This document shows positions 15,402 through 34,170 of a stretch of 64,000 nt of DNA, piece by piece. This DNA is from Bacteroidia bacterium (lineage in GTDB: Bacteria; Bacteroidota; Bacteroidia; J057). Below the pieces are notes generated by a model. It did not search any database, was not told the DNA's origin, and was given only the letters and a program-made list of their open reading frames with translations. A program made the position numbers and the translations under genes. Where the stretch lies: the NCBI GenBank assembly GCA_022760475.1, contig JALEFZ010000069.1, positions 62,001 to 126,000 on the forward strand. The letters are read 5' to 3'. The first letter of the stretch is position 1; each line of letters starts with the position of its first letter.

Positions 15402-16748
15402 TTATTTTTTAATCAGTTTTTGATAACCTACAAAATTTAGCTGTTTGACTTCCAGGGTATAAACCCCTTTGGGCAATTGGGAAAGATCCAGGAACATGGT
15501 ATTCTTACCGGGAACAACTTCGTACTCCTCTCGAATAAGCTCCTTTCCTTTCACATCATAGATTTTGACATCGAGAGGCCCCGCCTTGTCCGAGACCATT
15601 CTAATGCTTGTGGAGTTGGTTGTGGGATTGGGATAAATACCAAAATTTATTCCCGCAGAGAAATTAACTTCCACTATGGATGAATAAGAGTAAGTCCCAT
15701 CAATTTCCACCTTCTTGAGTCGATAATAGGATAAACCAGGAAAGGGATCGTTGTCCAACATTTGGTATTTCTGCTTTTTTTGCCCCCGATTTTGAGGAAA
15801 CTCCCTGCCCAACTGGATAAATGAATTTCCATCAGTTGATTTTTCGACCTCATAATATTGGATTCCTAATTCATACTCGAGTTCCCACTCGCACTTTACC
15901 TTATCTGAAACAGGGTAAGCATTGAAAACAAGGCCTTCAACAGGCAAAATTTGAAAGCTTGCCAAGGTAAATCGTGAGTCCAGGATTGAATTTAGACTGC
16001 CTGATTCGATATAATTATTGCTGGTATCAATGCTTGTTAATCCTTTTGGACTCCAAAGTCCACTGCTATCGGGACTCTGAAAGACCAATAGATCCTGTTC
16101 GGGCAATCCATTCAATTCTGCATTCATATAATTCATCCCAATAGTAGAATTAGGCGGGATAGCATTTTTTGTAACCAACTGATAATACCTTTTGATGCCA
16201 TCTCCTCCTGGAAAACTTTGAGGGTCATGGCCCCTGAGTATCCAACAAGTATCCAGGTTTGAGCTTGCACTTATGCTAAGTCCCAGATTCCCTGGATTGG
16301 TCGATGTGGGATTGTTGAGGATAGAGAATCGGGTGATTGTACCCCCTGGAATACTGCTATAAAGCCTTGAATTTTCAATTTCGGTTGCTAAACTTCCTTG
16401 ATTGCTGAGGTCAATGTTTTTCCCTGCCAAGTCAAATAATCCAGAAGAAAAAAACAGGCTATCCAACACTCGAATTGAATCTGACAACATGAGTTCTGAA
16501 GTATTTTTATTGACCTCTATTTGGTAGAATGACAAAGAATCGCCCATGATGCTGTTATTGTTCATTCCCTTGAAGATTACCCTGCCATTCCCTGGACTAA
16601 AGGCTCCATCTTGCTTCCAATCCATGTCATCCAGAACAAGCCTCACGGGACCATTTGCGAGTACTTCTACCCCAGCCTCAATGTTAACCTGAGCCCAAAT
16701 ACTTAGGCTTATCAGGTTGTATATGATTAAAAAGAATAATGATTTCAT
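15402..16748 (-). CDS. Secreted protein with T9SS type A sorting domain
   Basis: 448 residues with a signal peptide (1-19, SIWAQ). Residues 25-270 hold a beta-rich region with repeated short motifs such as KNIDLSNQGSLATEIE and an ISRF-like ITRFSILNNPT; I do not recognise a named family. Around 285-355 is a fibronectin-like module ending YYRLKKVEIDGTYSYSS, often seen before sorting domains. Residues about 365-448 are the T9SS type A domain: GIYPNPTTNSTSIRM, VKIYDVKGKEL, LPKGVYTLEVKQ. It lies 69 bases downstream of the giant head-repeat gene and is probably in the same operon. By family it is surface-exposed or released. Confidence 0.8.
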   Translation of the reverse strand: MKSLFFLIIYNLISLSIWAQVNIEAGVEVLANGPVRLVLDDMDWKQDGAFSPGNGRVIFKGMNNNSIMGDSLSFYQIEVNKNTSELMLSDSIRVLDSLFFSSGLFDLAGKNIDLSNQGSLATEIENSRLYSSIPGGTITRFSILNNPTSTNPGNLGLSISASSNLDTCWILRGHDPQSFPGGDGIKRYYQLVTKNAIPPNSTIGMNYMNAELNGLPEQDLLVFQSPDSSGLWSPKGLTSIDTSNNYIESGSLNSILDSRFTLASFQILPVEGLVFNAYPVSDKVKCEWELEYELGIQYYEVEKSTDGNSFIQLGREFPQNRGQKKQKYQMLDNDPFPGLSYYRLKKVEIDGTYSYSSIVEVNFSAGINFGIYPNPTTNSTSIRMVSDKAGPLDVKIYDVKGKELIREEYEVVPGKNTMFLDLSQLPKGVYTLEVKQLNFVGYQKLIKK

Positions 16749-16817
16749 TTTATTATGATGTTAAGGGCAGAAAGAACAGGCAATTGGTGCCCATTCTTCT
16801 GCAGTCATAAACGAACA

Positions 16818-19800
16818 TTAAAGTTTGATCCAAGCTCCTTCCTCGTATCCCCAGAATCCTCTGGAAGTAAAGGTTGGATTGGTTGAGGTCAGGTAAATCA
16901 TCATTCCATTTTCAGGAGTCAAGGCGCTTGCATCGGCTGCCGACATGCGCGTCAACACAAAGCCTCCATTATTGCTATTGAGCTTAAGGCTACCATTGAT
17001 TTCCACCTTGTCATTGTCGAATTCTCCGTAAATAAGGGGAGCATTTGAGTCAGAGTTTTCGATGTAAAGAGTTTGGGAACGCGTGGCTGCCGTCCCGGAA
17101 TTGTAGCCAATGAATACAGAAGAGTCTACATTGGCCGCCCCTGCTCCAGAGAAAGTACCGAGGAAGGTATTGTAGCTACCATTATTGCTGCTTCCTGCAG
17201 AAGATCCCAGGAATACTGAGGCAGCACCATTGATATTGGATCCACCGGAGAAGTTGCCGATGAAGACATTGTCTCCAAGACCCGTGTTGAAGGCTCCTAC
17301 CCCATTTCCAAGGAAGAGGTTGAAAGAGCTTTCGGCAAACTGTCCTGCACCATTACCAAGGAAGATATTTTGTCCGCTGTAAGCAAGGTTTTCCCCTGCA
17401 TAGGGTCCAATGAAGATGTTTGACCCATCCTGGACATTGGTTAGGAAGCCAGCCCTATATCCAATGTACATGTTATTGAAACCAGTAGTATCATTAAAGC
17501 CAGCTTCATGTCCGATATAGACTGACCCTTGCCCAAATTGGTTATGGAAGCCTGACTGAGATCCAAGGGCTACATTTGCGGAGCCTCCAAAGTTGTTGAA
17601 TAAGGCGAAATCACCCAAAGCCGTGTTGTAACTCCCGTCATTTTTCAAGGCCATGGCTTTGAATCCCACAGCAGTATTCGAATGTCCAGTTGTATTTATT
17701 TTTAACGCCTTTGAACCGATGGCGAGATTATTCCTGGCTTTATTATTCAACGCAAGGGCACTATCGCCTATGGCTATGGAATAACTGGAAGAGTCGGTAT
17801 CTACCATGGCGTTATGTCCAATAGCAATGTTGAAGGAATTCTTCAATCCATTCATTGATCTACTCCCAATGGCTATATTTTTATTCGCAAGGGTATCAAA
17901 ATAGAGACTTGAAAAACCTAGGGCTACATTTTCGTTTCCCTTTTCATTACCGGACAGAGAATAGGCACCCACTGCGACATTTTGACCAGCTGTAGTTGCA
18001 TAAAGTTGTGAAGCCGCCCCAATACCTACATTATCAGAACCGTAGGTAAGGTAGGAAAGGCTTTCAGATCCAACAGCTGTATTTGCTCCAACTCCTCCAC
18101 CGACAACACGCTTCAAGGCTTTAGAGCCTACGGCTGTGCTATTAATTTCTGCCGTAGAGGAGGCCATTGCACTGTCTCCGATAGCCACATTGAATGCACC
18201 TCCATTATTCAATTTCAAGGCATGGTAACCCACAGCAGTCAATTGGCCGCCACTTGTAGTTTTTGACAAGGCCTTTGAGCCTATCGCTGTATTATGTGTT
18301 TCTCCCGCATTTGAGGCTAAAGCACTATCGCCGATTGCGACTATGTAGGCTGAAGAATCAGCACCCATCATCGCCCTGGAACCAATGGCTATATTTGATC
18401 GATTTCTATTCCCTCCCATCGTATTTAAACCTAAAGCAACATTCAGGTTGGCAAGTGTATCACTCCATAAACTCAAATCTCCAATTGACACATTGCTACT
18501 TCCCGTTCTATTGCTTAATAGTGCATTAGCCCCTACAGAAGTATTGGATAGACCACTTATATTTGAGAATTGAGATTTAAACCCAAGTCCAACATTATTG
18601 CTACCTACAATTAAATTTTCTAATACAGATGCTCCGACTGCCGTATTTGCTCCCCCAGCACCTTCAAACTTTTTAAGTGTCTTGGAACCAATAGCAGTTG
18701 AACCATCTGTAAATTTTACTGATGTCAGGGTACTATCTCCCAAAGCAACGGTGGAAGTAGAAGAATCTGCATTCTTCATTGAGTGGTAGCCTATGGCTAT
18801 GGATCGTTCCACAGCGGTACTCTTCGAAAGCACCTTTGAACCGATCGCAATAATTCCATCTGCACTATCATTCAATGCCAGAGCAGAATCTCCAATAGCG
18901 ATGATAAAGTCACTTTTCCGGGTAGCTAAAGCTGCTCTATAGCCAATGGCTATAGATGTCTTTACAGAATCGCTTCTAGACATTGCAAAGGCTCCAATAG
19001 CTGTATTCTGATGATTGCCTACTCCCCTAAAGACTTGAATTCCAAAGCCGGAATTATCCTGAGCTATGGAGTCAAACACTAGCACCTCGTACCCCATAAT
19101 GGTATTTCCAGACCCCTGTTTAAGGGAAGAAGCTCCAAAGTCTCCAAGGATGGAATTTCCAAGTCCTGATTCTAATGAGGACAAGGCAGAAGTTCCAATC
19201 ACATTATTAAAGCTTGCATTTTTTGCCTTGGAAAGAACACCATTTCCGATTCCAATATTAGAGCTACCGATGTCCAAGAATTCCATTACATTTTGACCGA
19301 TGGCAATATTATGATAGATCTCATTTGTTCTGCCTAATTTCAAAGTATTCTTTCCTATGGCTATGGATTTTGCTGATTGACTAAATGCCATGGAACTATC
19401 TCCTATTGCGATGGATTGTGGATTGTTCGCATCCAACATAGAATTATGCCCCACTGAAATACTGTTCAAAGGAGCGCTAACTTTTTGACTATTATTTCCA
19501 ATGGCAATGACTTTGTTTCCCGCCAAAAAACCCATACCAGCTTTTGTTCCAATGGCAAGAATATCCTCACCATCCAATAAATTGTACAAAGTGGAATCTC
19601 CTATTCCGACTACACCTGAAAGGGTATCGCTTTCATGCAAGGCCATCCTCCCAATTGCCACATTTCCTTCACCACTGATGTTGCCAAACATACTTTCATA
19701 ACCAAGGGCGGTATTGCCATCCGAATCAAAATTTTTATGCAAGGATCTATAGCCAAGGGCTGTATTCCCTTTTCCTCTTCGGTTGGTTCTTAAAGAACTG

Positions 19801-20963
19801 GAACCAACAGCTGTATTGTATTTGGAATCTTGGGCAAACTCCACATCACTTCCATTATTGAATAAGGCTGAATCTCCAATAGCCACCAGATGAGAGGTTG
19901 TGTCATTGCTGAATAAGGCCAAAGCTCCGACAGCAGTATTGAAGTTGCCGCTCAAGGCATTAAAGGAGGCCCTGTCTCCCAAGGCGACATTTTCAGAACC
20001 AGAGAGGTTTGAGCCTAAGGAAAAGACTCCCATGGCTGTATTGGCATTTCCGCTTGTGTTCGAAGAAAGGGAAAGGTAGCCATTGGCGGTATTTGCAAAT
20101 GCATCCACATTGGATCTCAGCGAGAGGAAGCCGGTGGCAGTATTGTAGTAACCTCTGTCATTGAGGGCGAGGCTGCGTGAACCTAGTGCCGTGTTTCCGG
20201 TTGCTTCTACTGGAGAAAAGGCATTGCTGCCATTGGTGGCCAGGGCTGAGTCTCCCAGTGCAACGAGATAAGAGCGGTCAGAATTCTTATTCAGAGCGGC
20301 TAGCCCAATGGCTGTATTCTGAAACCCAATGGTGTTACTAGAGAGTGCAGTAGCACCCACAGCTGTATTGGACGAGCCAATGGTATTGGCTTTTAAGGCA
20401 GAGGCTCCAATACTGGTATTCAATAATCCAGAGGTATTTTCTTCAAGTGCAGAATCTCCAATTCCTACATTGAACAGGCCGGAACTAACTTTCAAACCAG
20501 CCCCTTGACCGATGTATACCGATCCGGAATTATTCTGGGGTTCAAGGGTATTTTTTTTCATCAGCCATTTCAGGCTTCCATCAGTCTCAAAACGGATAAC
20601 ATCGTCCCCAGGAGCGGTGGAATCTTCTACACAGACTTTGGTATCTCCATCGGAGTCTTCCAGGCAGAATGCCATGCTGGCCCCACTTCCTATATTTTGC
20701 CAAGCCATAATTCCAAATGAGAAAAACTGGAAATTGGAAGAATCAGAATTGTAGATCAAAAGTCCATCAGCTGGTGAAAGAATGTTGTTGCGCTGCAGGG
20801 TCGACATACGGGGGATTAGCAATCCTTTCTCAGTAGAAGATACATCAAGGATGGAAGAAGCATCAGGATTGTTACCCGTGGAATTGATGCCCACTGATTG
20901 GGCACTTAATCCTATCAATTGAAGGATAAGGCCAAATAGTAAAATAATTCGTTTTTCGTTCAT
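16818..20963 (-). CDS. Giant YadA-head-like repeat protein
   Basis: 1381 residues. A signal peptide (1-21, GLSAQ) is followed by a tail-fibre-like cap (SSILDVSSTEKGLLIPRMST, then DGLLIYNSDSSNFQFF), common in Bacteroidota surface proteins. From about residue 150 to 1290 the protein is an array of about 20-residue units with the pattern NTAxGxxALxxNxxG, which is the left-handed beta-roll of YadA/Hep-Hag heads. The end repeats the cap (GGFVLTRMSAADAS, NGMMIYLTSTN, GFWGYEEGAWIKL). There is no YadA barrel, no coiled-coil stalk and no T9SS sorting domain, so its export and anchoring route are unclear. Its length and repeat count suggest a long filament or sheath. Confidence 0.85.
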   Translation of the reverse strand: MNEKRIILLFGLILQLIGLSAQSVGINSTGNNPDASSILDVSSTEKGLLIPRMSTLQRNNILSPADGLLIYNSDSSNFQFFSFGIMAWQNIGSGASMAFCLEDSDGDTKVCVEDSTAPGDDVIRFETDGSLKWLMKKNTLEPQNNSGSVYIGQGAGLKVSSGLFNVGIGDSALEENTSGLLNTSIGASALKANTIGSSNTAVGATALSSNTIGFQNTAIGLAALNKNSDRSYLVALGDSALATNGSNAFSPVEATGNTALGSRSLALNDRGYYNTATGFLSLRSNVDAFANTANGYLSLSSNTSGNANTAMGVFSLGSNLSGSENVALGDRASFNALSGNFNTAVGALALFSNDTTSHLVAIGDSALFNNGSDVEFAQDSKYNTAVGSSSLRTNRRGKGNTALGYRSLHKNFDSDGNTALGYESMFGNISGEGNVAIGRMALHESDTLSGVVGIGDSTLYNLLDGEDILAIGTKAGMGFLAGNKVIAIGNNSQKVSAPLNSISVGHNSMLDANNPQSIAIGDSSMAFSQSAKSIAIGKNTLKLGRTNEIYHNIAIGQNVMEFLDIGSSNIGIGNGVLSKAKNASFNNVIGTSALSSLESGLGNSILGDFGASSLKQGSGNTIMGYEVLVFDSIAQDNSGFGIQVFRGVGNHQNTAIGAFAMSRSDSVKTSIAIGYRAALATRKSDFIIAIGDSALALNDSADGIIAIGSKVLSKSTAVERSIAIGYHSMKNADSSTSTVALGDSTLTSVKFTDGSTAIGSKTLKKFEGAGGANTAVGASVLENLIVGSNNVGLGFKSQFSNISGLSNTSVGANALLSNRTGSSNVSIGDLSLWSDTLANLNVALGLNTMGGNRNRSNIAIGSRAMMGADSSAYIVAIGDSALASNAGETHNTAIGSKALSKTTSGGQLTAVGYHALKLNNGGAFNVAIGDSAMASSTAEINSTAVGSKALKRVVGGGVGANTAVGSESLSYLTYGSDNVGIGAASQLYATTAGQNVAVGAYSLSGNEKGNENVALGFSSLYFDTLANKNIAIGSRSMNGLKNSFNIAIGHNAMVDTDSSSYSIAIGDSALALNNKARNNLAIGSKALKINTTGHSNTAVGFKAMALKNDGSYNTALGDFALFNNFGGSANVALGSQSGFHNQFGQGSVYIGHEAGFNDTTGFNNMYIGYRAGFLTNVQDGSNIFIGPYAGENLAYSGQNIFLGNGAGQFAESSFNLFLGNGVGAFNTGLGDNVFIGNFSGGSNINGAASVFLGSSAGSSNNGSYNTFLGTFSGAGAANVDSSVFIGYNSGTAATRSQTLYIENSDSNAPLIYGEFDNDKVEINGSLKLNSNNGGFVLTRMSAADASALTPENGMMIYLTSTNPTFTSRGFWGYEEGAWIKL

Positions 20964-21428: not shown

Positions 21429-24311
21429 ATGAATCGCTTTTGTTTCAGAATAATAAGTCTGCACATTTTTCTTTTTGTGTTTGGCAACTCTTTTGCCCAG
21501 GATAGACTCCCCGGCATTGATAGCCTCTATCAAGCCCTGGAAAAAACTAATTCGCCTGAAGAAAAGCTCGAAACAATGAAAAAACTGATGATGAAATTGG
21601 AGTCAGTTGACATTGCTGAAGGGCTCAAGGTATACAAAGAGGCGATAGAATTACTACCTCAGATCAAAGATCCCAAGGAGCAATTTTACATCACAGAGAT
21701 GACCATCAATTATTGCATGGCATATCAAATAGATTTGCCTTATGCAAGGAGTTTGATACCGAAAGCCAAAGAGATGGCAACAACTTATTATGAGGATAAA
21801 GAAAACCTTGCCTCTCTAATGATCAGTGAGGCAAGTTTTTATCTGATGGAAGGGAATCTTGAAGCTTATGTCGAAATCACCAAGGAAATACTTGAAATAG
21901 CTAATTCCGAAGACAATAAACTTGTAGAAGGGGTTACCTTATTCAACCTGGCCTATGTTTATTCGCAATATTACAATTATGAAGAGGCCTTATTTTATGC
22001 AAGGAAGGCTTTGGTGCAAATTAAAAAGATCCGTCCAATTACCAGAAATTCAAAAGACCATGAAGCAAGAATTCATCAGTTTATTGGCCTAAATCTACAG
22101 TATGCAGAGCCAGAGAAGGTAGATTCTTCCTTATTCTTCAGCAAAAAGGGTTATGCCATTTGGGACAGTTTATCCATGATTCCATTACAAAAAGCCCAAG
22201 CAGCATTTTATTTAGGCAATGCATACTTGAAAGCAAGAGATTACACCAATGCCCAAAAATACCTGTATGAAGGGATAGATGCTTCAAGATCAGTTGGCAT
22301 GCAAGAGGGAATTGTACTATCAGGTATATCCCTGGCAAGGATTTTCAGCGATCTGGGAGAAAAAGACAGCTTGAAGAAATACATTAAACTTATAGATCAA
22401 CCTTTTTCAGGATTTCAAATAAGCGGGATGCAGGAGTTTGAATTGATCTCCTTAAAAGCCAGTTTAATGTACTGGGAAGGAGATTTTAGCAACGCTTATA
22501 TCACTTTGATTCGGGGAGGCTTGAAAAAGGACTCAGTAAATTCAGAAGAACGCCAAGCCTTATTGAGTTCCAATCTCGTAAAGTTTCAAGTAGCAGAAAA
22601 GGAGAAAGAATTGGCCCAGCAAGAACTGGCAGCCTCACAGGCAAGGAACTCCAGAAATCAAATCCTGTTAATAGGGGGTACTTTGATTATGATCCTTGCG
22701 GTGTTGTTTCAATGGAGAATTAACCACCAAAGTAAACAAAGGCAGAAAGCCAAGCTGGCTCAGCAAATGGCACAGGCAGAAAGCAATCGCTTGAAAGAAC
22801 TGGACCAGTTGAAAAACGATTTCTTCACCAATATTTCCCATGAACTAAGAACTCCTCTTACCTTGATTCTTAGCCCTGTTTCTGATGCATTAGAACAAGT
22901 TCAATCCAGGGTAATGAGGGACAAACTTGAAACCATCCAACAGAATGGCGAACGACTTCTAAACTTGGTCAATGAAATCATGGACCTTTCAAAAGTCGAG
23001 GCCGGCAAAATGGAATTACACCTATCGGTAATGAATCTGGGTGAGTTTCTCAAGCGGGTGTTTTATTCTTTCGAATCCTTGGCACAATTACGTAGAATAT
23101 CTTATAAGGCAAATATTGATATTTCAGAAGTTTTTGTAGAGGGAGATAGAGATAAGTTGGAAAAAATCCTTAACAACCTGCTTTCTAATGCCATAAAATT
23201 CAGCCCGGCAGGAGGAAAAGTATCCTTATTGGCTTCGCGAATGAATGGAAATTTTTCCATTAGGATAGAAGATTCAGGTCAGGGAATTGATGTTGAAGAT
23301 CAGGAGAAGGTTTTTGACAGGTTTTATCAATCAAAAAACGTAAATGGGAGCCTTCAGGGTGGAACTGGTGTTGGACTTGCACTTTCAAAGGAATTAGCGG
23401 AATTGATGGATGGAAGTATTCAACTGGAAAGTGAGATTGGAGTTGGAAGCAGTTTTACCTTAAGCCTTCCATTGAAGGAAGTTCAGCAACCCGACCAAAT
23501 TGCGTTAGAAGAGGAATACGAATCTTCCAGTCAAACTCTCGCTTTTGCCCCCATCATGATAAATGGTAAAAAACCAAGGTTACTGATCGTTGAGGACAAT
23601 CCCGCCCTGGGGAAATATCTCATTCAGTTGCTCAATGAAGATTATCAATGTATTCTGGCTCAAGATGGAATGGAGGCGCTGAAACAATTGAAGATTAACC
23701 ACTTTGATTTAATCCTATCGGATGTGATGATGCCGAATATGGATGGCTTTGAACTCCGAAGAAAGATAAATGAAAGAAGGGATTGGAAAATAATCCCCTT
23801 CGTTTTACTGACTGCGAGACATCTTGAAGAAGACCGAATTACAGGTTTTCAGTTGGGAATCGATGACTACCTGACCAAACCATTTAGTAAACTGGAGCTT
23901 CAGGCACGAATTCACAACCTCATTCACAACAAATTGGAACGAGATGAATTCAAGCATTCGAATGAAGCAAAAGGAAATGTAAGCAATGTCGATCAGGAAA
24001 TGCTCCGGAAAATGGAGCATGTTGTCCTGGAACACATGACCGATCCCCAGTTTGGAGTGGAAAGCCTGGCCTCAGAAATCAATTATAGCAGCAAGCAAGC
24101 CCGAAGAATCTTGAAGGAATTGACTGGCATGACGACAGTAAACTTCATTTTGGAAGTCAGGCTTCAAAAAGCCAGGGAATTGCTGGAAAGGAGGCAGGTG
24201 GCCTCTGTAACAGAAGCACAGGTAGCTGTGGGGATTGATAGCGCTTCTTATTTTACCAGAAAATTTACAGAGCGATTTGGGATAAATCCCAAGAATGTAG
24301 GAAGGCTATAA
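21429..24311 (+). CDS. Hybrid two-component sensor: TPR, histidine kinase, receiver, AraC HTH
   Basis: 960 residues. A signal peptide (1-24, NSFAQ) and helical TPR-like repeats (about 30-395) sit outside the cytoplasm. One membrane helix (about 412-430, QILLIGGTLIMILAVLFQW) follows. Inside are a HisKA domain with H471 in ISHELRTPLT, an HATPase with NLLSNAIKF, DSGQGID, FDRFYQ and GGTGVGLAL, a receiver with D765 in LSDVMMPNMDG and K in LTKPF, and a C-terminal AraC HTH (YFTRKFTERFGINP). It senses with the TPR part and binds DNA directly, as the HTCS family does. It is divergent to the head-repeat/T9SS pair, a likely but unproven target. Confidence 0.92.
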   Translation: MNRFCFRIISLHIFLFVFGNSFAQDRLPGIDSLYQALEKTNSPEEKLETMKKLMMKLESVDIAEGLKVYKEAIELLPQIKDPKEQFYITEMTINYCMAYQIDLPYARSLIPKAKEMATTYYEDKENLASLMISEASFYLMEGNLEAYVEITKEILEIANSEDNKLVEGVTLFNLAYVYSQYYNYEEALFYARKALVQIKKIRPITRNSKDHEARIHQFIGLNLQYAEPEKVDSSLFFSKKGYAIWDSLSMIPLQKAQAAFYLGNAYLKARDYTNAQKYLYEGIDASRSVGMQEGIVLSGISLARIFSDLGEKDSLKKYIKLIDQPFSGFQISGMQEFELISLKASLMYWEGDFSNAYITLIRGGLKKDSVNSEERQALLSSNLVKFQVAEKEKELAQQELAASQARNSRNQILLIGGTLIMILAVLFQWRINHQSKQRQKAKLAQQMAQAESNRLKELDQLKNDFFTNISHELRTPLTLILSPVSDALEQVQSRVMRDKLETIQQNGERLLNLVNEIMDLSKVEAGKMELHLSVMNLGEFLKRVFYSFESLAQLRRISYKANIDISEVFVEGDRDKLEKILNNLLSNAIKFSPAGGKVSLLASRMNGNFSIRIEDSGQGIDVEDQEKVFDRFYQSKNVNGSLQGGTGVGLALSKELAELMDGSIQLESEIGVGSSFTLSLPLKEVQQPDQIALEEEYESSSQTLAFAPIMINGKKPRLLIVEDNPALGKYLIQLLNEDYQCILAQDGMEALKQLKINHFDLILSDVMMPNMDGFELRRKINERRDWKIIPFVLLTARHLEEDRITGFQLGIDDYLTKPFSKLELQARIHNLIHNKLERDEFKHSNEAKGNVSNVDQEMLRKMEHVVLEHMTDPQFGVESLASEINYSSKQARRILKELTGMTTVNFILEVRLQKARELLERRQVASVTEAQVAVGIDSASYFTRKFTERFGINPKNVGRL

Positions 24312-25876: not shown

Positions 25877-28800
25877 CTACCTTACAAGGGTTACTGTCCC
25901 CACCTCATCGTAGGTATTTCCATTTTGTCCGATTGCACGAATCTTATAAACATAAACCCCTTCAGCTGCAAAACCCCCATTTCTCGTTCTACCATCCCAC
26001 CTGAAATCTATCTGGTCAGCCTCATAAACCAGTTGGCCCCATCTGGTAAAGATTTGAACCTGGAGGCTAGCCATACCGAAGGAAACCACAAAAAAGTTAT
26101 CATTGGTTTGGTCGTCATTTGGGGTAAATGCATTTGGAACTTGAATCCAGACATCATCACCACGTACAAATTGCGATGCGGAGTCTATACATCCGAAAAC
26201 CGACTCTACCACCAATGTAATTTGGTGCTCCCCCGGATCAGGAATTGAAAATAATGGATCTTCTTCTCTAATATCTGCAGTAAAAGGGTTTTTCCATGTA
26301 AATGAAACCGCATTCTGAGATAAGTTGATCGCTTGTACTTCATATGGAACAAAGCCGTCGAGAACATCTAGCTCAAAAGCTGCTATTGGGTTTAAGCCTG
26401 CGGGATCCAGTGTAAGCTCAACTGTATTTCCTTGACAATTTCCGTTAAATGATGTTACAGAATAAGTAGAAATGCTATCTGGAGATACGTAAATGAAGGG
26501 GCGGTTCTCGCCATTGCTCCAAAGAAATCTTTCTCCACCTGTTGCATTTAAGGCAAATGTTTTATCCGGACAAACAGGCTCCCAATCTAATACAGTCCTT
26601 GGGATTGGGACAGTAGTTATTTGTACTGAGTCTATTCCTTCACAACCGAAAGAATCCAACCCAGTAACCACGTAGGTGATAATGGTATCTTCAGGAGTTG
26701 CCAGGGGATTTGCTAAACTTGTACTGGAAAGGAAGATTGGAGGTTCCCATGTATAGGAAACTGCACCTGTGGTACTCAACTCAACTCCTTCACCCTCGCA
26801 AATTTCCTGGTCCCCAATAGTTTGGATTACAGGTGGAGATAAGACCTCCACCCTGAGCTCTGCTGAATCAAAACAACCAGCAGCATTTGTTATTCTCAAA
26901 GTATAGGTCTGGCTTTGTGTAGGAAATGCTAATGGAGTGAAAGAATCTACTGAATCCAATGAATTGGCTGGACTCCAAAGGGGTACTCCATCGCCAGAAC
27001 CTAAAATCTGGACTGAATCTCCTAAACAAATAGAAAGATCAGACCCAACGGAAACCGCAGGTGGAGAATCAGCATTCAATCGCCACTCCGCAATAATGAA
27101 ACAACCCTCTGGAGTAGCAGAAGCACCTATATAGGTAATCGGCCCAGAGGGAGTTGCAATTGGAGTTCTGGAGGTCGGATCATCAAGACCTGTTCCAGGA
27201 AACCAATTATACCCCTGCCCTTCAGGAATACTCAGTTGAACAGATTCCCCAGGACAAAATGAGCTCTCAGAAAATACCGAGTCTCCAGAATTAATCACCC
27301 TGAAGGTTTCAGTCTCAATGCATCCAATAGAATTGGCCACTTCGATTAAAAATACAACCTCCTGCTTAAGGTTCCTTACCAAGGCAGAAGGGTTATTTGG
27401 ATTCTGAATGGTGATCAAGGGACTTGAAGACCAGCTGTAGCTGCTGCCCCAAGTGGTACTGGCCTCAAGGGCAAAGTCGGTTCCATAACAGGCTACGGTA
27501 TCCGGATAAGTATTGATAGGGCCTGTTGGGACTACTGTTACAAGTAGCCCCTCTTGAGTAGTACATGCGTTTGTGTCAATTAGCTGTACATAAAAGGAAT
27601 CGGTTTGTTGGACGCTTATCGAAACCGTTTCTTGATCGGCTAATCCTATCACTGCCGACACGGGTGTCCAACTATATGTTCCGGGAGGACCAAAAGCGGA
27701 TAGGTTAACTGTATCTCCCTCACATATGGATTGATCGCCAGAAACTGTAATGGTGGGTACTTCAAACACTTGTATTTGCTGGAAAGCTGTATCAGGATCG
27801 CGGCAACTCACCGTATCCGTAACAATCAACCTAACAGTAAAAATTCCTGCTGTATCATAAATAAAAGTAGGTTCAAACTCATTAGAACCCGCCCCTCCCA
27901 AACCAAAATCCCATTCATAGGCAAAACCCGCCTGAGAAGAAGTTGTAGTTGTTAAATTCTCAAACTCAACTACCAGGGGTGCGCAGCCTACATTCGATAA
28001 GGGTACCCCACTGGTATCCTGGGTTTCAAAGCTGGCATCTATTGTGAATGTTTCCAGATTAATCTTCAAAATGGCAAGGTTGCAACCTGAGAGGCCTGTT
28101 GCTGCCGAATTCGGACTATGGCTTCCAGGGGTACCAGGAAATGAATTATTCTGATTACAATTGGAGCATATCGCTTGGTAAATGACCCCTTTTTTGTCAA
28201 AGCGGGAGGTTCCACCGTCCACATGCTCAGGGTCAGCATTGCCACCAAAATAAGTTCCAAAAGAAAGCGCCTGCATGTTTTCATCAAATACGGCGATATA
28301 GAAATCTTCATCATCTGTGGTACTTTGAAGGGCATCTAAGGTAATGGGCCAATTATTGGTTTCTCCCCAACCACTGAAATAGATCCGACCACAGTCATCG
28401 ACCAGGAAGGCAGATGGTGAAAGGGGCTTGGTCGTAGACAAAGCTTCACCAAACACAGTAGAAAATTCTGCTGATTGAAGATTAAAGGGAAGTTTTACCA
28501 CGAATTGTCTTGCACCCGGATCGCTGTAAATGGTGCTTGAAGCAGGAGAAAAAATCGGCCAGTTAGTGCCAAATGTTTGTCCTGTAACATATATATCACC
28601 TGCCTGGTCAAAATCCAGCAGAAAGGCCTGATCCGCTGAACTGGAACCCAAATGAGTGGAACCCAACAAAGTAGTTCCGCTTGGATTGAAGGTTGCCACA
28701 AAACCATCTGTAGCCCCACCTTGGAAAGTTGCTTGGTAAGAGTTAGTCCCTACAGGAATATCCAGTGATTCTGTGCCCCCACAAACGATGACGTTGTCAT

Positions 28801-30316
28801 TGGGTAAAATTCGCACAGAATAAATCGCATCGTCTTCCCCACCTCCAAAGTAAGTGGCAAAAAGCAGACTGGAACAGTCAGGAGTAAGTTTAACCACAAC
28901 CCCATCTGAGTTTCCCCCACCAAAAAATGTCCTATATGCACCAGTAGTAACGGGAAAATCTATAGAACTGGTAACTGAGCCAATCAATATGTTGTCATTG
29001 TCATCTACTACTACTTCCCCTCGAAATCTATTGCCAAGGGTATCAAAATTAGTCGGAAAGAATCTACCGGCAGTAATTAGAGGGACAGAATTCATCCCAT
29101 CAATGGAACTTCCTCCAAGAAAGGTGCTACTTAAAAGTTGTGTCCCGTCATTAGATAACTTCGCCACAAACATGTCAGAAGAACCACTAAGGGTATTGTC
29201 ATGTGCGTTGGTTGAAATCGGAAAATTCGTTGAGGAGGTAGAGCCAAATATGACCAATTCATTTAGGCTATTCACTACAATGCTATGAGGAAAGTCCTCA
29301 CCTGTCCCACCCAAATAGGTTGCGTAGACCAGGTTGGTACCCGTCGGATCAAATTTAGCAACGGTTACTTCATCCTCACCTGCAGAAACAGCATCATATG
29401 CTCCTGGAGTAGTAGGGTAAGCCGTACTCCCTACCGATGAATCCCATTCAATCCCCCCTCCATATGCATTACCAAGTGTGTCATAGGTTGCAGTAAATCC
29501 GAAATCTCCTGCAGTACTCCCCGAGTGGGTAGCAAAAACAAGTACTGGATCGATTAACAGAGCTTTGTTCCGATCATATCCATTAGGGAATGAAAATGTT
29601 ACCCTGTTACCCTCTAAGACAAATCTTATGTCGACTTCTTTTTTCCTACCATTTATCCATTGGTACGCAATGGGTTTTTCTTCAATTACTTCACCTAAAG
29701 AAGTTCTGAGATGCAGGTTTCCTCCCTTGAGGTAAATTTCATCTGCGCCCTCGTAACGTAGACTAATTTTATTCACATCTGCTCCAGCATCCAGGAGGAA
29801 ATCATATTTTAACACATCACCATCTCCATAAAATCTTAGGTCGATGCCTGGATATACATCTTGGTACTGAATTTCTTCAAATAGGCCTACCCTACTCACC
29901 CATTTCTCTGGTTCATTCCCAAGGAAATAATTGTGATAAACTTCCTTCTTCTTTTTTGAGATCAGTTGGGATCGTGGATTTAGGCCTTCCAATTGAACAA
30001 AAACTGCATGAAACTGAGTCCTATCCTCAAACTTGGAATATATTCCGAATCCATGGGCATGATTATGACCATGGTGAAAATCCGCTGACTTGGGCATACG
30101 ATAGAAATCGTAAATTATCTTTCCCTGCTCAAAAAGCGCTGCCCCCCCTTCAAACTTGAGCATATATTTGAGCCTCTCGTTCCATTGGCCTTTATTTTCA
30201 ATAAAATTTAGGTGAGAATTTGATGCCTCCTGATTAAATAAAGGATTGTCCTGGGCAAGGCTATTTGCGTACATAGCCATACCTGCGATAAGCGCGACCA
30301 AGTAAGTGTGCTTCAT
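25877..30316 (-). CDS. Giant secreted protein with DUF7948, SBBP repeats, PKD and T9SS type B domain
   Basis: 1479 residues with a signal peptide (1-21, NSLAQ). Residues 38-250 are a DUF7948-like head (FIENKGQWNERLKYML; YPGIDLRFYGDGDVLKYDF). Residues 255-700 carry SBBP-type beta-propeller repeats of the form YATYLGGTGEDFPHSI/STFLGGSSIDGMN. A PKD domain (YEWDFGLGGAGS) is at about 800-870, and several more Ig-like or PKD-like modules follow. The last 90 residues are a gliding-motility-associated C-terminal, T9SS type B domain: VPNAFTPNDDQTNDNF, FTRWGQLVYE, EGVYVYKIRAIGQNG. It is a likely surface protein or adhesin. It lies 68 bases downstream of a shorter paralogue, so a tandem duplication and a shared transcript are likely. 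Confidence 0.88.
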   Translation of the reverse strand: MKHTYLVALIAGMAMYANSLAQDNPLFNQEASNSHLNFIENKGQWNERLKYMLKFEGGAALFEQGKIIYDFYRMPKSADFHHGHNHAHGFGIYSKFEDRTQFHAVFVQLEGLNPRSQLISKKKKEVYHNYFLGNEPEKWVSRVGLFEEIQYQDVYPGIDLRFYGDGDVLKYDFLLDAGADVNKISLRYEGADEIYLKGGNLHLRTSLGEVIEEKPIAYQWINGRKKEVDIRFVLEGNRVTFSFPNGYDRNKALLIDPVLVFATHSGSTAGDFGFTATYDTLGNAYGGGIEWDSSVGSTAYPTTPGAYDAVSAGEDEVTVAKFDPTGTNLVYATYLGGTGEDFPHSIVVNSLNELVIFGSTSSTNFPISTNAHDNTLSGSSDMFVAKLSNDGTQLLSSTFLGGSSIDGMNSVPLITAGRFFPTNFDTLGNRFRGEVVVDDNDNILIGSVTSSIDFPVTTGAYRTFFGGGNSDGVVVKLTPDCSSLLFATYFGGGEDDAIYSVRILPNDNVIVCGGTESLDIPVGTNSYQATFQGGATDGFVATFNPSGTTLLGSTHLGSSSADQAFLLDFDQAGDIYVTGQTFGTNWPIFSPASSTIYSDPGARQFVVKLPFNLQSAEFSTVFGEALSTTKPLSPSAFLVDDCGRIYFSGWGETNNWPITLDALQSTTDDEDFYIAVFDENMQALSFGTYFGGNADPEHVDGGTSRFDKKGVIYQAICSNCNQNNSFPGTPGSHSPNSAATGLSGCNLAILKINLETFTIDASFETQDTSGVPLSNVGCAPLVVEFENLTTTTSSQAGFAYEWDFGLGGAGSNEFEPTFIYDTAGIFTVRLIVTDTVSCRDPDTAFQQIQVFEVPTITVSGDQSICEGDTVNLSAFGPPGTYSWTPVSAVIGLADQETVSISVQQTDSFYVQLIDTNACTTQEGLLVTVVPTGPINTYPDTVACYGTDFALEASTTWGSSYSWSSSPLITIQNPNNPSALVRNLKQEVVFLIEVANSIGCIETETFRVINSGDSVFSESSFCPGESVQLSIPEGQGYNWFPGTGLDDPTSRTPIATPSGPITYIGASATPEGCFIIAEWRLNADSPPAVSVGSDLSICLGDSVQILGSGDGVPLWSPANSLDSVDSFTPLAFPTQSQTYTLRITNAAGCFDSAELRVEVLSPPVIQTIGDQEICEGEGVELSTTGAVSYTWEPPIFLSSTSLANPLATPEDTIITYVVTGLDSFGCEGIDSVQITTVPIPRTVLDWEPVCPDKTFALNATGGERFLWSNGENRPFIYVSPDSISTYSVTSFNGNCQGNTVELTLDPAGLNPIAAFELDVLDGFVPYEVQAINLSQNAVSFTWKNPFTADIREEDPLFSIPDPGEHQITLVVESVFGCIDSASQFVRGDDVWIQVPNAFTPNDDQTNDNFFVVSFGMASLQVQIFTRWGQLVYEADQIDFRWDGRTRNGGFAAEGVYVYKIRAIGQNGNTYDEVGTVTLVR

Positions 30317-30384: not shown

Positions 30385-33300
30385 CTATCTAATAATGGAA
30401 ACGGTTCCTTTGGAAGGATATTTTCTTCCATTTTGTCCGATGGCGTCCACTGTCCAAATGTAAACGCCTTCAGGAACTGCATTTCCCTTGAAGGTTCCAT
30501 CCCAGGTAAAATCAGGTGAAGTATTTTCATAAACCAGTATTCCCCATCTATTGAATACCTTGATATTCAAAAACTCGATTCCTTGATAGGTAATGTAAAA
30601 CTCATCGTTAATTCCATCTCCATTGGGAGTAAATGCCGTTGGGACAAGAAGATTGGTTGACAAAATTTCTATCATTTCGGAGATAGTATCTGCACAGCCA
30701 AATTCTGTTTGCGCAATTAAAATCACTTCGTATGTACCCTCAAAAGGATAAGTAAATACGGGGCTCTCTTCAAAACTTTGCTGTTGTCCCAGCCCGAAAT
30801 TCCATTCATAAGAAAAAGCTCCTTGGCTAGTATTCTGAAAGTTTATGGTTGATGGAGCAAAGCCCGTTCTTATGTCAGGAATAAAGGAGGCTTCGGGAAA
30901 ATCAAACTTTTCATCTACCACCACTGTATCAGGGATTCCCTCACAGGTGCCAATAAAGGCCGTAGCAATGTATGTCACCTGTCCTACAGGTTTTGGAACT
31001 TCAAGGACTGCAGCTGTGTCACCAGTGCTCCACACGTACCAGTCTCCTCCTGAAGCGCTCAATTCGATCAAACCTCCACTACAGGTTTTATTGACCCCAT
31101 CTATGACGGTCTGAGGTACAGGCAAAATTTCAACCCTTACCGTATCTTTGATCTCACAACCCTGAACATCAATTGCGGTAACCATATAATCTGTCGTCAC
31201 CTCTGGACTAGCCATGGTTGTACCCATACCAGGATCGCTCAAGCCCGTAGAAGGAGACCAGAAATAGGAAACGATATTGCCAGTGTTGCTCCAGGCTTGT
31301 AAAAGCACTGGAACTCCCACGCAGGTTCTTTTATCCTCCACCACATTAATAGGATTGGCCTCTTTGAGGCTGATTTCTACCTCATCTGTGGCCACACAAC
31401 CCGATTCATTTGTGGCGGTAAGGGTATAAGTTATGGGCTGTCTTGCTGTAAATATCGGATTGGGAATATTCGGATCAGAAAGGCCAGAAGCAGGGCTCCA
31501 GGTGTAAGCTACTCCACCTGAACCATTCAACTGAGCCAACTCGTTGGGACAAAGGTTCTGGTCCTCACCAGCATCCACATTGGGAAGGGGAAGGACTGAC
31601 AATGTCCTGTAGGCAGTATCTGCCAGATTACAAGCCTGTGGATCACGAATGATTAGCCTTACTTCAAAAACACCCGCTTCGGTATATTCATAAGTGGGTT
31701 CAAAGTCAGATGAACTTGCACCATTTATTCCGAAATCCCATTCATAGGTTAAATTAGTTCCCGGATTGGCCCCTAGAAAACTTCTGTTGTCAAAGGAGGC
31801 CAAAAATGGAACACAGCCAAAGATGGTATCACCCATATTCTCAATCGAAAAATCAGCCCTTACTCCTTCCAGGTCAAAAGCTAATTTAAATAAAGCAAGA
31901 TTACAGTTGGTAGGATACCCATTATTAGGACTGTAGGCAGAAGGAGTTGTTGGGAAATCAGCGGAAGATCCACATTGGGCGCAAACCGCATGATACACCA
32001 CCCCATTCTTATCAAAGCGGCAAGTGCCTCCATCGACATGCTCACCAAGCTGACCATTTGAGGTGCCAATACCTCCCAGGTAAGAAGCATAAGTCAAAGC
32101 CTGAGCATCTCTGGACAAAACAAATATGTACAAATCACTGCTATCGGTAGTTGACTGGTCAGCATTTTCAAGAGGCATTCCTCCAGTATTACCTTGGATG
32201 TTTGAAGCACCTCCCCATCCAGTAACATAAACATTTTCACAAATGTCCACCAACATCGCTGTAGGTGATATATTTGGCGTTGGAGAATTGGGGCTACCAA
32301 TAGTGGTGGAGAACATGATCTGATTGAGGTCAGGATCGAGTTTAGTCACAAACTGTTTTGCACCATTATTTACATATACATTGCCAATTGGCGGATTTAC
32401 AATGGGAAAAGCTCCTTCTGTTTGCCCAGTCACATAGACATTATCGTCCTTGTCAACATCCATAAGGTAGACCTGGTCATAGGCATTTGTTCCCAGATAA
32501 GTAGCACTCAAAAGACTACCACCATCGGAGGAAAGTTTTCCGATATATCCATCCGTAATTCCCTGACGGTATGTTTTGAATACGCCCGTAGCAGGTAAGT
32601 TTCTACTGGAAGTCCCACCTGCAAACAGGACGTTGTTGCTTTGATCTACCTTTATGGTGTAAATGGCATCCACACCGCTTCCACTGATACTCGTAGCCCA
32701 AATTCGCCTTCTAAGATCGGAAGAAAACTTGGCCACAATTCCACTTTGACCTCCACTTACAGTTTGGGAGTAACTATTTGGAGAAAAGGGGAAATTGGTA
32801 GATCGGGTAGGCCCTGCTACCAAGATATTACCCTCGTTATCCAAAAATACTTCGCCTCTTGCATCATCGCCATAATTATATTTGGTTGGTCCTGAAGAAT
32901 CCGTCGCGGATCCATTCACCCCATCATCTCCATCTCCCCCCAGATAAGTAGATGCCTGAAGCTGGAGTCCATCATAGGATAATTTTGCGATGAACATGTC
33001 AAATCCATCAATATCGTTATAAGAGTCATCAAATGAGTTCAAGGTTGGAAAATTAGGAGAATTGGTGCGGCCAAAGATTATAAGCTCTCCATTGGAGTTC
33101 GCGATCAGGCTGTGAGGCTGATCTTCTCTATTGCCCCCAAGATAGGTGGCATAAAGCAAATTCAATCCCTGAGGGTCAAACTTTGAAATGGTGATTTCCC
33201 TGTCTCCTCCTCTATTGGATCGCTGATAAGCCCCAAAAGTTGTAGGATAGCCATTTTGCAGCGCGTTTCCAGTACTTACTTCTACACCGCCAGCATAAGA

Positions 33301-34170
33301 ATTCCCATCCTCATCATATGTCGCTGTAAAACCCCAATTGTCCGAACGGGAACCTGAATAGGTGGAAAAGACCATGGTTGGATCAATCACCAAAGGCAAT
33401 TTATTGTTGTAGCCATCGGGGAATTTATACCTTACCGTATTCCCACTCAATTGGTACTTACTTCTTACAGGAATGCTACGGTCAGCCTTAAGTTGATAAC
33501 TTACAGGTGCATCCTCCACAACATCACGAAGGTTCGTCTTCCACAATAATTTCCCTTCTTCCAAATATATGTCATCGACCCCTTCGTATCGCAAACGGAT
33601 GGATCGTGGGTCTGCTCCGGGTTCAACTATAAAATCATATTTCAGGCTATTTCCAAATCCATAAATTCTAAGGTCTACTCCTGGATAAATGCCTTCATAA
33701 ATAATTTTTTCAAAAACCGGAACATTGGAAGCCCATTTACTTGAATCATTTCCCAGGTAATAGTTATGATAGTATGGACTTTTGACTTCCCCAGCAAGGG
33801 AACTATTAATATTGGAATTCTCAAAATGAACTCCTACCACATGCCCTTTAAGGTTAATATTGGGATCTGTAGAGTAATGGTGAGGATGGTCATCGATGGG
33901 AGGAAGTTCAAAGAAGTGCCACGTTATTCTATTTTGTTCAAAAAAGATTTCTCCTCCGTTCATTTTTGCCTTGAACAAAATCCTTTCATCCCACTGCCCC
34001 TTATTTTTGATAAACCGTAAGGAACTTTCCTTCACTGATTTAGAATCACGGGCAGTTTGCTGGTCTTCGCTTGCATCTATGCTACAAGAAATGACCGTCA
34101 GTATGAGGAATAGAAAGGATAAAAAGAGTAACTGTGTTCTTTTCCAGGAATGTTTGCGTGTAAATATCAC
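30385..34170 (-). CDS. Giant secreted protein paralogue with DUF7948, SBBP, PKD and T9SS type B domain
   Basis: 1261 residues from a GTG start at 34170; no ATG lies near and the signal follows directly. The hydrophobic segment ends VISC, so C29 may be a lipid attachment site. Domains follow the same order as in its downstream paralogue: FIKNKGQWDERILF head, YPGVDLRIYGFGNSLKYDF, SBBP-type repeats with YATYLGGNREDQPHSL and STYLGGDGDDGVNG, PKD modules with TYEWDFGINGASS and YEWNFGLGQ, and a type B sorting domain (VPTAFTPNGDGINDEFY, FNRWGILVYE, EGVYIWTVDAIGQNG). A lipobox on a T9SS substrate would be unusual. The leader contains a terminator-like hairpin. Confidence 0.88.
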   Translation of the reverse strand: MIFTRKHSWKRTQLLFLSFLFLILTVISCSIDASEDQQTARDSKSVKESSLRFIKNKGQWDERILFKAKMNGGEIFFEQNRITWHFFELPPIDDHPHHYSTDPNINLKGHVVGVHFENSNINSSLAGEVKSPYYHNYYLGNDSSKWASNVPVFEKIIYEGIYPGVDLRIYGFGNSLKYDFIVEPGADPRSIRLRYEGVDDIYLEEGKLLWKTNLRDVVEDAPVSYQLKADRSIPVRSKYQLSGNTVRYKFPDGYNNKLPLVIDPTMVFSTYSGSRSDNWGFTATYDEDGNSYAGGVEVSTGNALQNGYPTTFGAYQRSNRGGDREITISKFDPQGLNLLYATYLGGNREDQPHSLIANSNGELIIFGRTNSPNFPTLNSFDDSYNDIDGFDMFIAKLSYDGLQLQASTYLGGDGDDGVNGSATDSSGPTKYNYGDDARGEVFLDNEGNILVAGPTRSTNFPFSPNSYSQTVSGGQSGIVAKFSSDLRRRIWATSISGSGVDAIYTIKVDQSNNVLFAGGTSSRNLPATGVFKTYRQGITDGYIGKLSSDGGSLLSATYLGTNAYDQVYLMDVDKDDNVYVTGQTEGAFPIVNPPIGNVYVNNGAKQFVTKLDPDLNQIMFSTTIGSPNSPTPNISPTAMLVDICENVYVTGWGGASNIQGNTGGMPLENADQSTTDSSDLYIFVLSRDAQALTYASYLGGIGTSNGQLGEHVDGGTCRFDKNGVVYHAVCAQCGSSADFPTTPSAYSPNNGYPTNCNLALFKLAFDLEGVRADFSIENMGDTIFGCVPFLASFDNRSFLGANPGTNLTYEWDFGINGASSSDFEPTYEYTEAGVFEVRLIIRDPQACNLADTAYRTLSVLPLPNVDAGEDQNLCPNELAQLNGSGGVAYTWSPASGLSDPNIPNPIFTARQPITYTLTATNESGCVATDEVEISLKEANPINVVEDKRTCVGVPVLLQAWSNTGNIVSYFWSPSTGLSDPGMGTTMASPEVTTDYMVTAIDVQGCEIKDTVRVEILPVPQTVIDGVNKTCSGGLIELSASGGDWYVWSTGDTAAVLEVPKPVGQVTYIATAFIGTCEGIPDTVVVDEKFDFPEASFIPDIRTGFAPSTINFQNTSQGAFSYEWNFGLGQQQSFEESPVFTYPFEGTYEVILIAQTEFGCADTISEMIEILSTNLLVPTAFTPNGDGINDEFYITYQGIEFLNIKVFNRWGILVYENTSPDFTWDGTFKGNAVPEGVYIWTVDAIGQNGRKYPSKGTVSIIR

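Follow-up and report, generated by a model that had tools for sequence, protein, structure and literature searches.

How could a fibre-like protein without a recognisable anchor of its own be exported from a Bacteroidia cell and held at its surface? The question is raised by P0005, encoded on the 64,000-nucleotide stretch of DNA analysed here (the window). An earlier note on this DNA had described an open reading frame of 1381 residues at positions 16818–20963, and this frame is present on the minus strand with an ATG start (Table 1). Its product begins with a Sec signal peptide that, as read from the sequence, has LSAQ at its end. Between the N-terminal cap and the rungs lies a short 'DGDTKVCVEDS' module, and the protein's just two cysteines, residues 100 and 111, both fall within the linker module. 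A Pfam search of P0005 with E-values up to 1 gave zero matches, among them none to the YadA barrel or to PF13884 (Peptidase_S74); a type IX secretion system (T9SS) C-terminal sorting domain was found neither with Pfam nor with curated HMMs nor with a C-terminal domain (CTD) model of our own, and NF053851, the model of the MAT N-terminal domain, did not match. The absence of both a YadA barrel and a T9SS domain, as claimed in the earlier note, is thus borne out by the HMM searches, and these searches likewise revealed no hidden C-terminal sorting or barrel domain, which it had named beforehand as counterevidence to its reading. No full-length close orthologue occurs among 60 relatives, the best showing 40% identity over part of the protein. 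No relatives in the PDB were found for P0005 by sequence, and the three matches of the A3 profile to the PDB (E 0.15–0.54) were judged to be due to chance.

Table 1. Positions of the P0005 and P0004 genes and their parts in the window
Feature	Position	Strand	Details and basis
P0005 fibre protein, 1381 aa	16818..20963	minus	ATG at 20963, stop ending at 16818
P0005 signal peptide, ~residues 1-21, MNEKRIILLFGLILQLIGLSA / Q	20901..20963	minus	translation reading; no lipobox Cys
P0005 N-terminal 'LIPRM' cap, residues 22-90	20694..20900	minus	cap HMM, 92 bits
P0005 linker module 'DSDGDTKVCVEDS...', residues 96-142	20538..20678	minus	alignment A3, composition
P0005 array, ~67 rungs, residues 143-1297	17073..20537	minus	repeat analysis and AlphaFold2 solenoid (residues 22-420)
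P0005 transition 'LYIENSDSNAPLIYGEFDNDKVEINGS', residues 1298-1324	16992..17072	minus	recurs among fibre relatives
P0005 C-terminal shortened cap, residues 1325-1381	16821..16991	minus	cap HMM positions 17-67, 22 bits
P0005-P0004 intergenic gap, 69 nt	16749..16817	minus	
P0004 partner, 448 aa	15402..16748	minus	signal peptide and type A T9SS sorting domain
P0004 'BODY' module, residues 18-268	15945..16697	minus	alignment A1; pairs with capped fibres
P0004 T9SS C-terminal domain, residues 368-448	15405..15647	minus	TIGR04183, E 6e-13
Terminator-like stem-loop 3' of P0004	15366..15396	minus	such sites no commoner than chance regionally

The rungs follow the consensus NTAIGxxALxxNxxGxx, are mostly 17 residues long and carry one invariant glycine each. 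Their spacing is exactly 17 in 46 of 66 cases, and the self-identity of P0005 at period 17 (0.270) lies about 22 s.d. above that of 500 shuffles (0.0875 +/- 0.008), so that the nearly 1150 residues of rungs reported earlier are confirmed. A 188-residue higher-order repeat within the array suggests that part of it has grown by block duplication. The description of the array as YadA-head-type fits only loosely. YadA-type rolls consist of 14-residue layers with one fully conserved glycine and insertions between layers (PMC9543794). P0005 shares the one invariant glycine per layer with these heads of trimeric autotransporters (type Vc), which form a left-handed parallel beta-roll (PMC9543794), whereas it has no barrel anchor, its layers have 17 rather than 14 residues, and at 16.4 bits it falls short of the cut-off of 25 bits set for the YadA_head Pfam model. 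Conceivably, the 17-residue rung may represent a 14-residue YadA-type layer plus a 3-residue insertion. Together with its neighbours, an S74 paralogue on C52 exceeds the YadA_head cut-off (27.9). PHROG fibre and virion families match the rungs of P0005 with E-values down to 8e-110, and such rungs also turn up in 75 phage records, several with the annotation tail fibre, tail spike or intramolecular chaperone; identities to the listed phages amount to 26–35% over 44–88% of P0005. Judged by sequence, the rungs are thus of the phage tail-fibre kind, fitting phage-fibre families far better than YadA_head. Similar rungs are found in the S74 tail fibres of cyanophages, pelagiphages and SPO1-like phages, and many Bacteroidota relatives of P0005 carry S74 as these do; P0005 differs from phage tail fibres in having a signal peptide and no S74, in being chromosomal and in adjoining a T9SS gene.

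An AlphaFold2 monomer, the structure prediction that the earlier note had proposed, was obtained for residues 22–420 and is a solenoid over this part (mean pLDDT 76, pTM 0.63). When compared with viral models it matches adhesion and fibre proteins, among others, and its rungs superimpose on phage beta-helices with Z up to 17.7 (rmsd 3.5 over 271). The VIA matches, to tailspikes and lyases, span the rungs and indicate a solenoid, no more; YadA heads are absent among them, which excludes nothing. A Foldseek search of the PDB with the N-terminal model returned no match below E 0.001. The earlier view of P0005 as a long roll, here a beta-roll or solenoid fibre, is supported. The fibre is probably trimeric, as suggested by the rungs of relatives, which often precede an S74 intramolecular chaperone (33 of 59 rung-rich cap proteins); S74 accompanies trimeric fibres in phages and Bdellovibrio (PMC10769870). 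If the rungs rise as in known beta-rolls, by about 4.8 A each, 67 of them would make a shaft of about 32 nm.

In all likelihood P0005 is a surface fibre akin to phage tail fibres and MATs. The MAT fibres of Bdellovibrio bacteriovorus (NF053851) are trimeric surface adhesins with a conserved N-terminal domain, a beta-helical shaft and an S74 or variable tip at the C-end (PMC10769870). A signal peptide, an N-terminal domain and, in P0005 as predicted, a phage-like shaft are common to both, and the SDxxxK motif in the S74 domain of MATs occurs likewise in the Bacteroidota S74 fibres examined. Unlike MATs, P0005 has a different N-terminal domain, a cap at its C end and an adjacent gene for a type A T9SS (T9SS-A) partner; only paralogues with an alternative N-terminal domain, termed QA ('YQAVARD') and present in many S74 fibres, resemble NF053851, at 35–38 bits and thus below its cut-off of 60.

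The adjacent gene encodes P0004, which qualifies as a type A T9SS substrate: apart from TIGR04183, its sorting domain matches PF18962 (E 1.7e-12), is preceded by an FNIII-like domain and resembles in fold the CTD of NucA in the T9SS complex 8glk_D (Z 11.7, rmsd 1.8 over 75). P0005 departs from such substrates in that it has no CTD, the signal residing on a separate polypeptide. The short gap on the same strand and the stem-loop after P0004, of a type no commoner than chance in the region, make it likely that the genes form a two-gene operon; a terminator scan of the gap itself found nothing. The genome also encodes the T9SS translocon SprA (SprA_N, E 3.5e-140, contig C49). Type A substrates pass the outer membrane via the T9SS and are commonly fixed at the surface. 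The statement that the protein has no known anchor holds for P0005 itself; a partner in trans, probably the adjoining P0004, would be the simplest explanation of this lack.

The pairing recurs beyond this locus. Open reading frames were called mechanically, the locus sets came from different searches, and the cap, body, QA, TVGE, S74 and T9SS models were all built from these same loci; the loci also share descent, so the p-values overstate independence and support. The P0004 search yielded 18 proteins with a strong P0004 body, the window genome's own three included, and 12 of them are immediate neighbours of a capped or S74 fibre, as against 5 of 211 control genes. In the window genome all three P0004-body proteins adjoin cap genes, and two further strong-body proteins adjoin other fibre-like 'GIGTTxP' proteins (L098, L101). 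Capped fibres were sought on contigs with a consensus cap sequence as query. At 78 named loci selected by the cap alone, T9SS-A genes make up 27 of 94 same-strand neighbours versus 21 of 377 controls (p 3e-9), an about fivefold enrichment, with paired loci in Saprospiraceae, Flavitalea and Hymenobacter among others. Nevertheless, 63 of 86 cap clusters in the named set lack an adjacent T9SS-A gene, so that pairing is not universal unless the partner genes sit elsewhere. Among neighbours of S74 fibres in the window's own family, 29 of 77 carry T9SS-A versus 17 of 320 controls (p 2e-12), a few of the S74 loci in this count having been gathered for other reasons. Of these S74 fibres, 16 are fused to a T9SS-A domain, 24 adjoin a T9SS-A gene and 26 do neither, five of the last lying at a contig edge. 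One relative from this family, some 78 rungs long, has a T9SS domain following S74 in a single chain, which means that rung fibres sometimes carry T9SS signals themselves.

Which partner a fibre has appears to follow a rule. Neighbours of QA fibres are small T9SS-A proteins of about 160–260 aa with a 'TVGE...LTQGFQQ' domain, and in the window genome all seven TVGE genes adjoin a fibre-type gene. Cap fibres have a P0004-type partner in 36 cases and a TVGE partner in none; QA fibres have a TVGE partner in 19 cases and a P0004-type partner in none. Other kinds of T9SS-A gene adjoin 20 cap fibres. The cap fibres with a P0004-type partner have varied bodies (rungs with S74, Kelch propellers, others), and on these comparisons it is the N-terminal domain, not the fibre body, that predicts the type of partner. 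In addition, of 157 complete fibres that begin with a cap or QA, not one has a fused T9SS signal, as against 14 of 26 that have neither (p 3e-14). Restricted to the set from the window's family, the two proportions become 0 of 36 and 11 of 20. Most simply, this mutual exclusion would mean that the N-terminal domain replaces the T9SS signal by recruiting a partner that bears one.

We therefore lean, with some reserve, towards a model in which P0005 is a probably trimeric secreted fibre that is exported or tethered in trans. Its N-terminal cap would dock to P0004; P0004 would carry P0005 out through the T9SS or tether it at the surface; and the shaft and the C-terminal cap would have an adhesive role. 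T9SS export and tethering after separate export both seem compatible with the comparative data. The general form of the model is more tentative: Bacteroidota might display phage-like fibres as split T9SS cargo, with at least two orthogonal docking pairs, the LIPRM cap with P0004-type proteins and QA with TVGE-type proteins. A search of an open-access library turned up no relevant report on CTD-less T9SS cargo or on Bacteroidota S74 fibres, and no precedent for sorting in trans by a T9SS partner. One published control, Sec-exported mCherry without a CTD, is a single protein and not a complex (PMC10994853).

A different division of labour, unlikely in our view but deserving serious attention, would have the fibre exported independently of the T9SS, P0004 being merely a surface receptor that grips the cap after separate export of both proteins. 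It draws support from the MAT fibres of Bdellovibrio, which are surface-exposed and have an N-terminal domain distantly related to that of the QA paralogues, not to that of P0005. To our knowledge Bdellovibrio has no T9SS, and hence fibres of this sort must have some way out that does not involve it. The authors of the MAT work also expect the N-terminal domain to bind some surface element (PMC10769870). An export signal provided by the partner, however, accounts more directly for the finding that N-terminal domains and fused signals exclude each other, and no other outer-membrane exporter was recognised adjoining the P0005/P0004 pair. Docking might also be dispensed with altogether if the two proteins cooperate at the surface, for example as two subunits of one adhesive appendage, and the matching merely reflects co-inherited operon families. 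Two such families could produce the 36:0 and 19:0 partition without physical specificity, and the tight spacing of paired genes (17 nt in the median, with the partner gene downstream in most cases) is expected of any co-inherited operon. We nonetheless consider this explanation improbable, as bodies swap freely while N-terminal domain and partner type remain matched.

The earlier note had instead envisaged a fibre or sheath whose like caps act as trimerisation or self-association modules; on this view the two caps might join molecules end to end into a filament or sheath. Two homologous caps do occur within the chain: the cap HMM, whose seed alignment included P0005's own N-terminal cap, matches residues 22–90 (92 bits) and residues 1325–1380 (22 bits; E 2.8e-8 in a search of 5 proteins), and direct alignment of the two caps scores 56 compared with 25.9 +/- 4.8, maximum 53, for shuffles. 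The C-terminal copy is shortened, however, covering model positions 17–67 alone and lacking the first 16. P0005 is the sole cap-ended protein among 59 complete rung-rich cap proteins, and the trait is not a property of the family; the shortened cap occupies the position of the S74 chaperone or tip. Since the N-terminal cap is paired with a T9SS-A partner and in the sample never co-occurs with a fused T9SS signal, this comparative evidence favours a role in docking over one in self-association, and a filament built through the caps seems very improbable. Least credible of all is that P0005 belongs to a phage or prophage. Although its rungs match the phage records and PHROG tail families cited above, it has a signal peptide and a T9SS partner and lies in a housekeeping chromosomal neighbourhood, and the translated window yielded no recognisable genes for phage structural proteins. 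A prophage fibre was accordingly rejected.

The more interesting point lies outside the coordinates of P0005: the fibre seems to have a T9SS-sorted partner of its own, chosen by what looks like a docking rule. The T9SS is described as reading each cargo's own C-terminal signal. If the proposed docking of P0005 to P0004 is true, the T9SS would gain sorting in trans, and under the split-cargo reading multi-subunit fibres would cross the outer membrane, or stay held at it, by piggyback on the T9SS. The work on MATs leaves open which surface element their invariant N-terminal domain binds (PMC10769870); the present loci offer a candidate in another phylum, namely a neighbouring T9SS-sorted protein whose type is matched to the N-terminal domain of the fibre. 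There would then also be a genome-based rule by which partners could be named for the numerous Bacteroidota 'tail fiber domain' proteins that still lack an explanation.

A hybrid histidine kinase / response regulator / AraC-type regulator adjoins the fibre gene in three of the six cap fibre loci of the window's genome (identified from partial translations in loci L081 and L083), and these regulators might control fibre expression. The window also holds, side by side, two paralogues, both of which combine DUF7948 and PKD domains with a T9SS signal of the CHU_C type. Capped fibre genes stand in tandem in loci L155, L136 and L172, with at least four per run, as in an expanding adhesin repertoire.

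Coordinates of the fibre relatives, regulators and paralogues (window or within each comparison locus)
Feature	Locus	Position	Strand	Remark
Rung-array relative	L110	6698-12013	+	1771 aa
Hybrid regulator	window	21429-24311	+	divergent from fibre gene P0005
Hybrid regulator	L081	3894-7979		partial translation
Hybrid regulator	L083	12496-15654		partial translation
Fused S74 + T9SS-A fibre	L232	6468-7550		
Fused S74 + T9SS-A fibre	L233	5015-6256		
Fused S74 + T9SS-A fibre	L234	2313-3587		
Fused S74 + T9SS-A fibre	L084	1021-2532		
DUF7948 + PKD + CHU_C paralogue 1	window	25877-30316	-	
DUF7948 + PKD + CHU_C paralogue 2	window	30385-34170	-	

Array, chaperone and sorting signal are united on a single chain in the L110 relative, whose T9SS-A domain is fused to about 78 rungs, a cap at an internal position and S74. 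The fused S74 + T9SS-A fibres of four further loci (L232, L233, L234 and L084) retain the SDxxxK catalytic motif; any self-cleavage in them would part the fibre from its sorting domain.
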